The translations under genes and the position numbers were made by a program. 40,105 nt of DNA from Thermococcus sp. 21S7 (lineage in GTDB: Archaea; Methanobacteriota_B; Thermococci; Thermococcales; Thermococcaceae). How positions within the stretch are numbered: the stretch's first letter is position 1; each line of letters opens with the position of its first letter. The stretch covers positions 1 to 40,105 of the forward strand of contig NZ_SNUT01000010.1 in assembly GCF_012027615.1 (NCBI RefSeq), in the 5' to 3' direction. The notes under the pieces were generated by a model. That model ran no database searches. It worked only from the letters and a program-made list of their open reading frames with translations, and was not told the DNA's origin. This document shows, piece after piece, positions 5,555 through 10,005 of the stretch.

Positions 5555-6880
5555 TCACTTCCCCGCTATCTTCACGTTCTCAAACTTCACGAAGGGCGTT
5601 ATGATGGTCGTCATGAAGGGCATTACCGTCTGCTCCTTCGAAACTTCACTCGCCCCCTTCAGCAGTTCGTAGACGTTGCCCGCAATGAGGAAGACGCTGG
5701 AACCGACGACTTCTCCGTCCTCGATGAGGAACGCCGGGTTCGCAGTTACCGCGAAGTTTCCGTTGTCCGGGTTGCTTGAGTGTGCACCCTGGAAGCCGTC
5801 CACGAAGTAGCCGTGCTCGATTTCGGATATCATATCCTCCAGAGAGCGCTTTCCGTTCTCGATAACCATGCTGTGGAACCCGATGTTTATTCCTCCGCTG
5901 TTCAGGTCGCGCTTGCCGTTTCCTGTACTCTCGGTGCCGTGAACCTTCGCCCAGTAGTTGTCCCAGACGAAGCCCTTGAAGGTTCCGTTCTCGATGAGGA
6001 CGTTCTTCCTCGTCGGAACCCCCTCTCCGTCAGCTATGACAGGCTCGATGGCCAGCTCGTGGAACGGGTCGTCGTATATCGTGAGCACGTCGCTGGCTAT
6101 CTTCTCCCCGACCTTTTCTGCAAGGGGCGTCGTCTCCTTAACCAGGCGCTCGCCGCTGAAGGCCGGGAAGAGGGCATAGCTGAAGAGTCCCGCTATCGCC
6201 CAGGGGCCGAGTATTATCGGAACCTCCTCGTTTTTGCTTGCCTTGACGCTGTACGCCCATTTAACTTTCTGAACCGCCCTCTCGACGACCCCGTCAACGT
6301 CCAGGTTGAGGTCCCTCCTGGCATCGAAGTCGAAGATTCCGGGGGTAACGGTGCCCTCCTTTCTTCCCACCAGTTCAAGGAAGAAGAAGGCCGCACCGCC
6401 TTCCTGGAATACGTCTATTCCGTGGGAGTTGACGATGTGGCGCTCCTCCCACGAAACGCCGCCCTCTCCGCCCGCCACGATGACGTTCTCGTCCTTCTCA
6501 CGGGCGAGCTTTATGCCGCGGACGAGCATCTCAACGAGCTGATCAGGGGAGGCATCCTTCAGCTCGTAGTTGGGCTTCGGCTTCTCCCTGTATTTGCCCG
6601 GCTCGGGCAGGGAGACCCACTTCTCGTCCCTGCTGTTCAGCTTTGCCATCTTCGCCGCCTGTTCTATTGCCTCCCTTATCCTAGCAGGCTCGTCGCTGTC
6701 TATTATGGCCAGTCCGAGGCGCTTGTCCTTTATTCCGCGGAGTATCGTGACCGCGCCGCTTCTCGTGGAGGCCATCGAAATCTCGTTGAGCTCGACGCTT
6801 GCACTAACGTCCTTGGAGCGGTAAACGGCAATCTCAAGCTCGTCGAAAAACTTCTCGCCGTACCTTATGAGTTCCTCCAT
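5555..6880 (-). CDS. tldE: TldE/PmbA-type subunit of the TldD-TldE protease
   Basis: This 441-residue protein of the PmbA/TldD (modulator of DNA gyrase) family lacks the HExxxH zinc motif and so is the TldE-type partner. In Escherichia coli TldD and TldE form a heterodimer that digests unfolded peptides and matures microcin B17. The sequence has the family landmarks: the N-terminal EIAVYRSKDVSASVE strand pair, GGEGGVSWEERHIVNSHG, RKNVLIENGTFKGFV, and NPDNGNFAVTANPAFLIEDGE near the C-terminus. The ATG at 6880 is preceded by GAGGTGG and lies 10 bases after the tldD stop, so the two genes are cotranscribed. A longer open frame upstream overlaps tldD and is ignored. Confidence 0.93.
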   Translation of the reverse strand: MEELIRYGEKFFDELEIAVYRSKDVSASVELNEISMASTRSGAVTILRGIKDKRLGLAIIDSDEPARIREAIEQAAKMAKLNSRDEKWVSLPEPGKYREKPKPNYELKDASPDQLVEMLVRGIKLAREKDENVIVAGGEGGVSWEERHIVNSHGIDVFQEGGAAFFFLELVGRKEGTVTPGIFDFDARRDLNLDVDGVVERAVQKVKWAYSVKASKNEEVPIILGPWAIAGLFSYALFPAFSGERLVKETTPLAEKVGEKIASDVLTIYDDPFHELAIEPVIADGEGVPTRKNVLIENGTFKGFVWDNYWAKVHGTESTGNGKRDLNSGGINIGFHSMVIENGKRSLEDMISEIEHGYFVDGFQGAHSSNPDNGNFAVTANPAFLIEDGEVVGSSVFLIAGNVYELLKGASEVSKEQTVMPFMTTIITPFVKFENVKIAGK

Positions 6881-6890
6881 CTTCACCACC

Positions 6891-8258
6891 TCACCCGATG
6901 AGGATTCCTCCGTCAAAGCGCATGTGCGGACCGCCCGAGCTGACGAAGGCCGTCTGTCCCTTTCCGCAGAAGCCGACCTCAAGGCCGAAGTCCTTGCCGA
7001 CCGCGCTTATCTTCTTCAGCGCCTCGATGGCAACTCCGGTAATCGAGGTGTCCCTTATCGACTCGGCGATTTCACCGTTCCTGATGACGTAGCCCTCCTG
7101 GACGCCGACCTGGAAGGCGCTGTTGAGCTGGGCCTGGCCGCCGCGGAAGTCGACGACGTAGTAGCCGAACTTGATGTCCTCGATGAGCTCCTCGAAGGAG
7201 TAATCGCCCGGCTCAAAAATCGTGTTCCTCATCCTGATTATAGGCGGGTAGCGGTAGCTCTCGGCCCTCGCGTGGCCGTTCGGCTCCATTCCCCACTTCG
7301 CCGCGTACTCGCGGTTGAGCATTATCTCCTTCAGGATTCCGTTCTCGATGATGCGTATGTCCCTCACCGGAACGCCCTCGTCGTCGTACTTGTCGTTTCC
7401 AAAGCCGCCCTCAACGTAGCGCTCGCTCATTGTGACGTACTCGGGAGCAATCTGCTTGCCGATGAGGTCCTTGAAGGGCGAGTTTATCGTGAGGTCTGCC
7501 TCCGCGAGGTGGCCTAAAGCTTCGTGGGCGATGATTCCAACGACGATTGGGCCCGCAACGATGGGGAACTCGCCGCGCTTCGGGGCGACGCCCTTAAGCT
7601 GGCTGTGCATCTTCCTCAGCAGTCTCTCGGTGACCTTCTCGTTTGGCTCGTGCTCCGTCATGAGCTCCCAGCCGTAGTCCACGGCGCCTATGCTGTCCCT
7701 GGCCATGGCCAGCTTTCCGTCGGCCTTTCCGGTGACGTAGGTTCCCTGGTAGAGGTAGTTGTAGTCCCACTCTATGCGCGTTCCCTCGCTGGTGAGGAGG
7801 ATTTTCTGCCCGCCGCCGTCCTCGTAGCGAACCTGGACGCTCTTAACGGCCTCGTCCTCCTTCAAAAGCTTCTCCAGCTCCCTGAGGTGCGCGACCTTCT
7901 CCTCTATGTCAACCTCTTTCGGCTTGACCTTCATTTTGCTCTTCACGAAGTCCTCGACCGGCTTTATCTCGGCCAGCTCTATCTTCTCCCTCTTGGTCTC
8001 GGCGGCCGCTTTAGCCAGCTTGTAAGCCTCCTCGATTTTTCTCTCAAGGTTCGAGAGGTCGCTGGTCGAGGCAAACCCCCATGCTCCATCGGCCAAAACC
8101 CTTATTGCAACGCCCCTGTTCAGCTTCCCGGTAAAGCTGGTAAAAACGCCGTCCTTGAGGGAAAGTGCCGTCTTTCTAAGGTCCTCATAGCGTAGTTCCA
8201 CGTAGTCTGCTCTCAGGTTCTCCTCCGCCCAGCGGAGGGCTTTCTCCAGTTTCTCCAT
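6891..8258 (-). CDS. tldD: TldD metalloprotease subunit
   Basis: This 455-residue catalytic subunit carries the zinc motif HEALGH at 245-250 (HExxxH). It has the conserved glycine-rich C-terminus (VGFCGKGQTAFVSSGGPHMR), whose cysteine is a metal ligand in bacterial TldD. The active site should lie inside a TldD-TldE cavity admitting only unfolded or short peptides. The ATG at 8258 is chosen because GGTGAT lies four bases before it. An ATG at 8264 and a GTG at 8267 are possible alternatives. tldE follows after 10 bases. A TATA box (CTTTTATAGT on the minus strand, 8303-8312) lies about 45 bases upstream. Confidence 0.94.
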   Translation of the reverse strand: MEKLEKALRWAEENLRADYVELRYEDLRKTALSLKDGVFTSFTGKLNRGVAIRVLADGAWGFASTSDLSNLERKIEEAYKLAKAAAETKREKIELAEIKPVEDFVKSKMKVKPKEVDIEEKVAHLRELEKLLKEDEAVKSVQVRYEDGGGQKILLTSEGTRIEWDYNYLYQGTYVTGKADGKLAMARDSIGAVDYGWELMTEHEPNEKVTERLLRKMHSQLKGVAPKRGEFPIVAGPIVVGIIAHEALGHLAEADLTINSPFKDLIGKQIAPEYVTMSERYVEGGFGNDKYDDEGVPVRDIRIIENGILKEIMLNREYAAKWGMEPNGHARAESYRYPPIIRMRNTIFEPGDYSFEELIEDIKFGYYVVDFRGGQAQLNSAFQVGVQEGYVIRNGEIAESIRDTSITGVAIEALKKISAVGKDFGLEVGFCGKGQTAFVSSGGPHMRFDGGILIG

Positions 8259-8420
8259 AGCCATCACCGCCTGCAGTTGTCCACCAGTGTCTGGGTTCAG
8301 GAACTATAAAAGTCTTTTGAACATTTCGATGGGGGTCGAAAGGATTATCACAGAGATTATTGTTATATATAGTAAACTAAATCTAACTGTATCTTTTTGA
8401 ACTTCTTTTGAGCAAAAGTG

Positions 8421-8470
8421 TTATATATGATGAGTGTAAGAAAATTAATGCAAGAACCCGTTGGGGAGGT
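8421..8470 (+). promoter_or_regulatory. Promoter and RBS for the cysteine-rich protein operon
   Basis: TTATATAT (8421-8428) is a good TATA box, about 45 bases before the ATG at 8473. A second AT-rich TTATATATAG lies at 8363-8372. GGGAGGT (8464-8470) is the ribosome binding site. The whole 8268-8460 interval is A+T-rich and holds no gene. Confidence 0.5.
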
Positions 8471-8472
8471 CG

Positions 8473-9186
8473 ATGCGGAGGCGTGCACTGCTGGCCATAT
8501 TTGTGGTGTTGCTCCTTGTTGGAGCATACGGCGCCTACGTGGTCAGCTACCCCAAGTATCCAGAGGCAGAGGGTTGCGTCAACCCGTTTGCCGTTACAAA
8601 GCCAGTGGACAAGTTCCAGGAGAACTGGTCGAGAGCCCATGTATTCTTCAAGCTCGCAACGATGAGGGACTTCTGGAAGCTGGCCAAACCCTGGGACGTT
8701 GATTACTCTCACGTCAAAATTGTAAAGCACACAATTGAATACAACGGGGAAGAGATAACCATGCTCGCCATGGGAATTCTGCTGAAGGACAAAGAGCACG
8801 TGATAGCGCTGTACGAGTTCTCAAAGCCAGTACAAGGAGTGAAGATCCAGGGCTATGTTTTCAAGGTTGTCAATGGACAAATAAAAACCGAAGAGGTACT
8901 TACCAATGGAAGAGTTACTCCTCTAAGCGGATGTCAACATGAATGTTCAACTGCTTCAGACTGTGGACCATTTGGAAGGTGCATTCCGTATTGTTGTGAT
9001 CATGATTGGGGCTGCATAGCATCTTGTTGTGGAGACTGTGCTTTTAGTTGTGGTAGTTGCATGAGAGGAAACGCTGGAGGCTGTGCAAGTTGCTTATATT
9101 GTGTTTTGGTATCTTGTCCCTATTGTGCAACTTCCTGCTGTGAAGAAGAAGGGACCTACTGCGATTACTTAAGTCCCGGACCATAG
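8473..9186 (+). CDS. Exported protein with C-terminal domain of 20 cysteines (halocin-C8-like architecture)
   Basis: This 237-residue protein has a positively charged start and a hydrophobic helix (about 6-24), either a signal anchor or a signal peptide. A soluble domain of about 120 residues follows (about 30-150, with KFQENWSRAHVFFKLATM and a predicted strand-rich second half). The last 77 cysteine-spanning residues (154-230) contain 20 cysteines, often as CC or CxxC pairs, plus Gly, Ser and Ala, and almost no Lys or Arg. I do not recognise a named family. Halocin C8 of haloarchaea has the same plan: a signal, an N-terminal immunity domain, and a C-terminal cysteine-rich antimicrobial peptide cut from one precursor. 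The sequence becomes visibly A+T-rich from about 8880, near the domain boundary. The ATG at 8473 follows GGGAGGT; an in-frame TTG at 8461 is less likely. Confidence 0.75.
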   Translation: MRRRALLAIFVVLLLVGAYGAYVVSYPKYPEAEGCVNPFAVTKPVDKFQENWSRAHVFFKLATMRDFWKLAKPWDVDYSHVKIVKHTIEYNGEEITMLAMGILLKDKEHVIALYEFSKPVQGVKIQGYVFKVVNGQIKTEEVLTNGRVTPLSGCQHECSTASDCGPFGRCIPYCCDHDWGCIASCCGDCAFSCGSCMRGNAGGCASCLYCVLVSCPYCATSCCEEEGTYCDYLSPGP

Positions 9187-9197
9187 GGGGGATACCA

Positions 9198-9512
9198 ATG
9201 AAGGTGAGCAGAAAGGTCTATCTCACTCTTTTAATATCTTTGTTCCTTACCGGATTGGCAATATTTGACGGAACATCAATTTGGGTCGCCATAATAACTG
9301 TTACAATACCCGTTATGGCAAGTTACTGGCTAGTCGTAAGATTTAATGGAATTGGTATGGTACTCGTTCCAGTATTATGGGCACTTTCAGTTTTTGTAAG
9401 AAGTTACCTTACTGGAACGCTCACTTCAGAAACACTGAAAATAGTTAGTGTGAAGTCGTTTGGCAGTGTGGTTCTAGCCTTCGCTTATGTAACTTTTACC
9501 CGAAAAAGGTAG
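9198..9512 (+). CDS. Small polytopic membrane protein next to the cysteine-rich protein
   Basis: This 104-residue, very hydrophobic protein has about four predicted membrane helices (roughly 8-25, 28-46, 50-67 and 84-100). Its ends are basic (MKVSRKVY and TFTRKR), and there is no known motif or cysteine. It starts 11 bases after the cysteine-rich gene with GGGGGGAT as ribosome binding site, so the two are cotranscribed. Like the 3' part of that gene it is A+T-rich for this genome. A small membrane protein directly behind a putative antimicrobial peptide gene is a typical place for an immunity or export function, but that is inference from position only. Confidence 0.7.
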   Translation: MKVSRKVYLTLLISLFLTGLAIFDGTSIWVAIITVTIPVMASYWLVVRFNGIGMVLVPVLWALSVFVRSYLTGTLTSETLKIVSVKSFGSVVLAFAYVTFTRKR

Positions 9513-9660
9513 TGGATGCCATAACCTCTGAGGAGAAACCCAAAAGATTGACATATAAATTAAGTCTGGACATTGGTTAGTGGAGATTCACGATATTTTA
9601 ACGCGCATTCACCATGTCAAAATCGAGAAACTTAAAACAGGATACACCCATCACTCAACT

Positions 9661-10005
9661 ATGAAGGCCGAAATCAAGAATTTGATTGACAGAGGAACCT
9701 ACCGGAAGCTCCCTCTCTTCGAGGGCGAGCTGCCAGAAAACAGCTACGCCCAGATAGTGGAGGTCAAGCCCGGACAGACCGTTGGGAAGCACTACCACCT
9801 CCGCCAGTACGAGCTGTTCTACATAATGAGCGGCGAGGCAAGGCTCGGCATCGGCGAGACTGAATACCTCGCAAGGCCCGGCGATATCTTCCTGGTAAAG
9901 CCCAAAACCGTCCACTGGGTCGTCAACGAGCGTGACGAGCCCTTCAGGCTCTTCGTGGTGAAGCTGAACTACCGCGGGGATGACTCCGTTTGGCTGGAAA
10001 AATGA
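9661..10005 (+). CDS. Single-domain cupin protein
   Basis: This 114-residue one-domain cupin has both conserved motifs. Motif 1 is GQTVGKHYHLRQYELFYIMSG, with His, His and Glu metal ligands, and motif 2 is PGDIFLVKPKTVHWVVN, with the final His. A metal site is therefore intact. Small cupins of this kind may be isomerases, dioxygenases or sugar-binding proteins, and the substrate cannot be read from the sequence. The ATG at 9661 gives the usual family length. A GTG at 9580 is in frame and would add 27 residues. A TATA-like CATATAAA lies at 9553-9560. The gene ends 12 bases before the convergent oleate hydratase gene. Confidence 0.85.
   Translation: MKAEIKNLIDRGTYRKLPLFEGELPENSYAQIVEVKPGQTVGKHYHLRQYELFYIMSGEARLGIGETEYLARPGDIFLVKPKTVHWVVNERDEPFRLFVVKLNYRGDDSVWLEK

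Follow-up and report, generated by a model that had tools for sequence, protein, structure and literature searches.

A probable polymorphic, disulfide-rich archaeocin system with candidate membrane immunity proteins in Thermococcales

The stretch of DNA analysed here (hereafter the window) comprises 40,105 nucleotides of Thermococcus sp. 21S7 (contig NZ_SNUT01000010.1, positions 1 to 40,105 of the forward strand) and contains, between tldD and a cupin gene, two small genes whose parts are listed in Table 1. The first of these, which starts with the ATG at 8473 and ends with the stop codon at 9184–9186, encodes a precursor protein with 21 cysteines, 20 of which are crowded into residues 154–230, i.e., exactly 77 residues in the last third of the chain, as a preceding sequence-only reading had indicated; the window has 122 stop-to-stop frames of at least 100 aa, and the next-highest count that any of them reaches over 77 residues is 6. 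The AlphaFold2 model of the precursor (28 sequences as input, pLDDT 81, pTM 0.75) displays a hydrophobic helix (residues 2–24) followed by a separate beta-rich domain (residues 44–150) and a compact tail, so that the signal or anchor helix and the separate domain proposed earlier to precede the cysteine-rich part are both recovered. The modelled tail consists of strands 168–177 and 223–232 around four helices, that is a beta-hairpin plus helices. Just before the tail lies an invariant Asn145-Gly146, which had been considered as a cleavage site and whose conservation is explained by its location in a turn between two strands of the model. An additional peculiarity of the protein is its invariant Cys35 (8575–8577, motif GCVNPF), placed right after the signal helix and unpaired within the N-terminal domain, for which dimerization, formation of a mixed disulfide and attachment are candidate roles; a broken precursor copy in genome G076 has Tyr in its place.

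The positive charge of the N-terminus and the hydrophobicity of the helix imply that the tail should face outwards, and export of the window precursor is likely in view of the canonical signal-peptidase motif AYA that relatives from other genera and from Archaeoglobus possess at the position of the helix; some of these relatives are probably secreted, and cleavage of the signal peptide in the window protein itself is putative. No known domain, and no recognizable trafficking or toxin domain, was detected in the precursor in Pfam, NCBIfam, PADLOC and PDB sequences; Foldseek comparison with the PDB and with viral models yielded no fold match at E ≤ 0.001, and the best result of a profile search of PDB sequences was a chance-level match with the waprin omwaprin-a (E 0.26). 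Likewise, no export machinery, processing protease or known toxin domain was found linked to the module.

The second gene begins 11 bases past the stop codon of the first, and both hydropathy and an AlphaFold2 model (pLDDT 80) assign to its product four hydrophobic helices (5–23, 28–49, 51–72 and 77–103), in keeping with the small polytopic membrane protein noticed at the outset. A TATA...ATGCAAGAACCCGTTGGGGGGTCG layout recurs upstream of the homologues of the precursor gene, including those at other chromosomal sites, and is retained before immunity genes that have no toxin gene. In the leader (8448–8472), a run of G residues directly before the start codon (4–8 G in the relatives) differs in length among species; translational tuning or slippage is possible. 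The G+C content is 0.57 in the flanking genes and 0.52 in the N-terminal domain, and falls to 0.40 in both the junction and the membrane gene, with 0.45 in the tail between them, the third-position GC dropping at the domain border from 0.67 (N-terminal domain) to 0.27 (tail); the A+T-rich shift reported to start near this border and to extend through the second gene is thus confirmed.

Table 1. Coordinates of the module and of its surroundings in the window
Feature	Position	Strand	Description and basis
tldD (PmbA/TldD metallopeptidase)	6891..8267	-	Flanking gene, outside the module; site marker; Pfam
Whole module	8346..9660	+	Presence/absence unit at the tldD-cupin site; absent in G032; in 18 genomes tldD adjoins the cupin gene without it
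Promoter and short leader	8421..8472	+	Conserved; TATA-like TTATATA at 8421-8427, G-rich ribosome-binding stretch
Precursor gene	8473..9186	+	ORF, 237 aa; constant N-terminal domain, variable cysteine-rich tail; homologues in 42/94 Thermococcaceae genomes
Signal or anchor helix	8473..8544	+	Residues 2-24; positively charged N-terminus MRRR; hydrophobic helix in model
Constant N-terminal domain	8545..8841	+	Residues 25-123, beta-rich, lone Cys35 invariant; alignment, and model with pLDDT about 90 (residues 51-130)
Exchangeable cassette	8847..9655	+	Junction, tail and membrane gene; DNA homology break in G014, G018, G029 and G078
Cysteine-rich tail	8929..9183	+	Residues 153-237, 20 Cys, ten disulfides predicted; even Cys count in 30/30 tails, co-varying pairs
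Predicted immunity protein gene	9198..9512	+	104 aa, 4 transmembrane helices (model); covaries with tail type; unpaired homologues in arrays and toxin-less loci
Cupin gene	9661..10005	+	Other border of the site; Pfam Cupin_2; homology with relatives restarts at gene start

The borders of the module are defined by an empty site. In genome G032, whose TldD fragment is 97% identical to that of the window, the sequence corresponding to window position 8345 is joined through 43 bp to that of position 9661, the entire module being missing. In other genomes the module is found at sites other than that of tldD, beside genes for SAHase, for an Elp3-like protein and others. Genes tldE and tldD (5555–8267) are oriented divergently from the precursor gene, and this neighbourhood, together with the example of microcin B17 in E. 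coli, suggested the idea that TldD/TldE could be the processing protease; however, a dedicated role was rejected because tldD is present in 72 of the 74 good genomes as opposed to 34 of 74 for the module, which moreover occurs at the other sites; a role of TldD/TldE as recruited, non-dedicated processing enzymes is possible. The tldD-cupin site is also a recurrent insertion hotspot, in which other DNA is found inserted (e.g., in L155, L158 and L164).

Within the module, a second pair of borders delimits the part that is exchanged. When the window is compared with four genomes whose modules occupy the same site but have other tails (G014, G018, G029 and G078), DNA homology extends from tldD across the intergenic region and the N-terminal domain, ends at 8843–8846 (around codon 124) and restarts at 9656–9661, i.e., at the start of the cupin gene, so that the exchanged unit corresponds to 8847–9655 (~810 bp). 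At the protein level the first ~123 residues of the precursors are nearly constant, followed by a tail that varies strongly on a conserved cysteine framework. Among 28 genomes, the N-terminal domains have a median identity of 73%, the tails of 40% and the membrane genes of 23%; in the 132 genome pairs whose N-terminal domains are at least 80% identical the medians are 42% for the tail and 24% for the membrane gene, the tails being <50% identical in 91% of the pairs. An extreme case is that of G014 and G072, which belong to different genera and have N-terminal domains 98%, tails 49% and membrane genes 26% identical. The proposal that the locus is a swappable cassette attached to a resident N-terminal domain is therefore supported by the breakpoints, by the empty site and by the pairing of tail and membrane gene described below, the killing activity that it presupposes being a prediction. 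The comparison with other genomes suggested at the time gave the expected picture: in about 30 genomes a conserved N-terminal domain is joined to cysteine-rich tails that differ, every tail being accompanied by a small membrane gene of its own.

The membrane genes, which were assigned to tails by position, form 16 clusters paired with tail types at a blastp threshold of E ≤ 1e-4, under which some clusters may be distant relatives. Tail similarity is correlated with membrane-gene similarity (Mantel r 0.65, p 0.0003), a value unchanged when N-domain similarity is partialled out, whereas the correlation of N-terminal domain with tail amounts to r 0.16. Since the pairing was set by position, the former correlation also follows from physical linkage, and what it shows is co-transfer of the two elements rather than proof of protection. 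The tail type of the window is found in three genomes of another genus (tails 64–79% and N-terminal domains 57–62% identical), and exactly these three other-genus genomes carry the membrane-gene family of the window. Both partners also diverge within types, the immunity genes faster (G014 and G016 have tails 80% and membrane genes 24% identical), so that the specificity of immunity for a given tail is presumptive.

The strongest argument for considering the membrane genes as protective comes from those that are not paired with a tail. One to three extra membrane genes belonging to other tail types follow the cognate pair in several genomes (G029, G022, G033, G070/G067/G071, G113, G107 and G090), the second membrane gene of G107 being of the type of the window. 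In four genomes (G001, G025, G035 and G095) the precursor is decayed, but two or three membrane genes, whole or in part, are still present; in G027, which is without precursor, the interval from tldD to cupin contains three small membrane genes, of which two follow a copy of the precursor promoter, and at the tldD sites of G004 and G079 promoter and membrane genes are kept, the intact precursor being missing. Decayed toxin genes are many and intact copies at most one per genome. Arrays of this kind are known from polymorphic toxin systems as polyimmunity loci (PMC3482391). As a separate observation, the same ~1.1 kb segment, which contains a membrane gene encoding 130 aa and belonging to the G022 immunity type, along with remnants of a tail and a membrane gene of the window type, is present with 97% identity at two chromosomal sites of G007 (L114:3466-4682 and L115:3528-4655), and this segment may be a mobile immunity-only unit.

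The alternative that best withstands these data is that the module serves hypervariable surface recognition (of kin, or of self and non-self) without killing, in which case the tail would be displayed as a ligand and the membrane protein would be the receptor matched to it or a partner in its display. A ligand-receptor pair would be expected to show pairing and hypervariability just as much, and Thermococcales possess VARTIG, another hypervariable surface module, made of Ig domains and of unknown role, for which the same option has been proposed (PMC8416519). The likeness with VARTIG extends to the archaeal order, to the exchange by recombination of the hypervariable C-terminal end of an exported protein and to the variability of the downstream genes; however, the VARTIG proteins are large chains of Ig domains whereas the present precursor is small with a cysteine-rich tail, and no Ig-family Pfam match (VARTIG Ig domains, arCOG07710) was found in 28 precursors. 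Recognition without killing appears unlikely to us, albeit less so than the other alternatives, insofar as the several membrane genes without tail gene (G027, G079 and G004 at tldD) fit resistance better, and the frequent decay of the tail with membrane genes being kept makes more sense as resistance than as an accumulation of receptors deprived of their ligand.

The state of the cysteines bears on a second alternative, put forward already in the sequence-only reading, namely that of a surface protein whose tail binds Fe-S clusters or heavy metals, with the membrane protein acting as transporter or electron carrier. The very high cysteine density of the tail, the probably anaerobic life of Thermococcus and the metal-rich vent fluids would be compatible with this premise. 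On the other hand, the cysteine number is even (14, 16, 18 or 20) in all 30 tails (29 from Thermococcales and one from Archaeoglobus); after removal of redundancy (<70% identity) 21 of 21 tails have an even number, compared with a mean of 10.5 and a maximum of 19 in 20,000 simulation runs having the same alignment-column cysteine frequencies as the tails. Furthermore, the cysteine columns covary, with phi 1.0 for pairs 40-78 and 59-67, 0.89 for 35-89 and partial covariation for 52-70, and both members of pair 40-78 are lost in G107 compared with its relative G113. Because cysteines are gained and lost in pairs and their counts are even, disulfides are to be expected and are, judging from the sequences, far likelier than metal clusters; the covariation also predicts the pairing of the disulfides, which can itself be checked. 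Neither Pfam nor NCBIfam nor the PDB provided a match of the tail to a metal-binding family, including iron-sulfur and metal-storage families, a homology that had been named beforehand, together with an invariable tail, as speaking against the swappable cassette. Finally, a cofactor domain would not be expected to be hypervariable or to have its partner gene swapped, so that a metal-cluster protein is very improbable.

A similarly small probability is attributed to a third alternative, in which an exposed protein, the membrane gene specifying its folding partner, would be diversified under the pressure of viruses as a decoy or receptor. The region is hypervariable and probably exposed, and cassettes are exchanged between species, as this would require; nevertheless, the complete replacement of partner genes by unrelated families (the 16 clusters) and the accumulation of unpaired partners constitute a poor fit, and no viral or plasmid relatives were found in IMG/VR viral contigs, INPHARED phages and PLSDB plasmids. 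The latter result also led to rejection of a virus or mobile element as carrier of the module. Besides the occurrence given in Table 1, the N-terminal domain is present in 34 of the 74 good Thermococcaceae genomes and in five of six genera, with 44–98% identity between genomes; no further matches were found elsewhere in the phylum, outside Thermococcaceae. The sole relative outside this family is encoded on a contig of the MAG Archaeoglobus sp. UBA230 (L130:4995-6873; 43% identity) and was retrieved from the GTDB contigs by an alignment-based search, a single-sequence search giving no match; its signal peptide is canonical, its tail has 18 Cys, and a row of three small membrane genes lies downstream. 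The ribosomal protein S8e of this contig aligns imperfectly with S8e of Pyrococcus/Thermococcus (about 57% by eye), which makes it unlikely that the contig is a Thermococcus contaminant.

As to the known systems, the initial reading had compared the locus with halocin C8. Small exported peptides with a dedicated small immunity gene downstream are typical of class II bacteriocins and are shared by the present module, which differs in that neither double-glycine leader nor dedicated ABC exporter is seen beside it, in the much greater length of the precursor and in its archaeal hosts; no homology to class II bacteriocins was found. Archaeocins have been characterized mainly from haloarchaea and Sulfolobus, and the parallel with halocin C8/ProC8 stands as an analogy in the order of the parts, both precursors being archaeal and exported and having a distinct N-terminal domain ahead of a cysteine-rich peptide of similar size at the C-terminus (76 vs about 85 aa here). 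It does not extend to homology, which was rejected: the NCBIfam model TIGR04449 recognizes halocin C8, used as positive control (E 1.1e-16), yet matches none of the 28 tails at E ≤ 1, and profile comparison with hhalign gives a probability of 0.1%. Moreover, halocin C8 has 10 cysteines, as opposed to 14–20 here, where there are also a separate membrane immunity candidate and swapping of tails as cassettes. For halocin C8, the immunity peptide is reported to be the N-terminal part of the precursor (PMC11509114), and the comparison would assign the same function to the N-terminal domain of the window protein. Being nearly constant across unrelated tails, this domain cannot be a tail-specific immunity, for which the small membrane gene is the candidate instead; a generic protective role of the domain is possible. 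A true archaeocin of the halocin C8 type, with the N-terminal domain released by cleavage as immunity protein, is accordingly the least credible alternative, its resemblance in part order being outweighed by the negative model and profile searches, by the inability of a constant domain to protect specifically against different tails and by the existence of a separate co-varying membrane gene.

The closest organizational likeness is with polymorphic toxins (PMC3482391), in which a constant N-terminal part precedes an exchangeable C-terminal part with an adjacent cognate immunity gene, and in which unpaired immunity arrays and remnants of displaced tails occur. The corresponding features seen here are the exchanged variable C-terminal regions, the distinct downstream partner gene and the polyimmunity-like loci with displaced-tail remnants. 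Unlike in those systems, what is exchanged is a small peptide rich in disulfides and not an enzymatic toxin domain, the immunity candidates are all small membrane proteins, there is no recognized trafficking domain and the N-terminal domain is short and without known fold. In the full-text literature searched, neither a description of the family nor an archaeocin of Thermococcales was found, the survey of Makarova et al. 2019 (mBio, doi 10.1128/mBio.00715-19), which may already list such a candidate, being outside its scope.

Taken as a whole, comparative genomics makes it quite probable that the locus specifies a polymorphic disulfide-rich archaeocin of Thermococcales accompanied by membrane immunity. 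According to this model, an exported N-terminal domain that does not vary, expressed from an equally constant promoter, would present a variable C-terminal peptide of ~85 residues, cross-linked by 7–10 disulfides, on or outside the cell, its proteolytic release being conceivable. The peptide would attack related archaea devoid of the matching partner at their membrane or envelope, the membrane of related cells being suggested as target by the membrane-embedded nature of the immunity candidates, and the small polytopic membrane protein encoded downstream would make the producer immune to the tail that it carries. Recombination at two points, one inside the precursor gene (around codon 124) and the other at the gene that follows on the chromosome, would swap tail and immunity gene jointly, and displaced immunity genes would accumulate downstream or persist alone as pre-emptive resistance.

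Thermococcales include genetically tractable model strains, and if the proposed mechanism is true, inhibition could be forecast from sequence alone: strains with differing tails would be antagonistic unless they have, perhaps in unpaired form, the membrane gene that matches. The module would also be a source of many disulfide-rich peptides, heat-stable and varied by nature, with a cognate immunity predicted for them. Somewhat less firmly than the nature of the locus itself, though still on the side of the probable, we would generalize to a polymorphic toxin system that spans a family of hyperthermophilic archaea and whose exchangeable weapon would be a folded peptide with 7–10 disulfides and not an enzyme. 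A genome would keep a single intact cassette at most, genera would exchange cassettes through recombination inside the precursor gene, and selection on neighbours would be recorded as arrays of unpaired membrane immunity genes, some of them keeping the promoter of the toxin after loss of the latter. Such a system would offer a handle on conflict among vent archaea.
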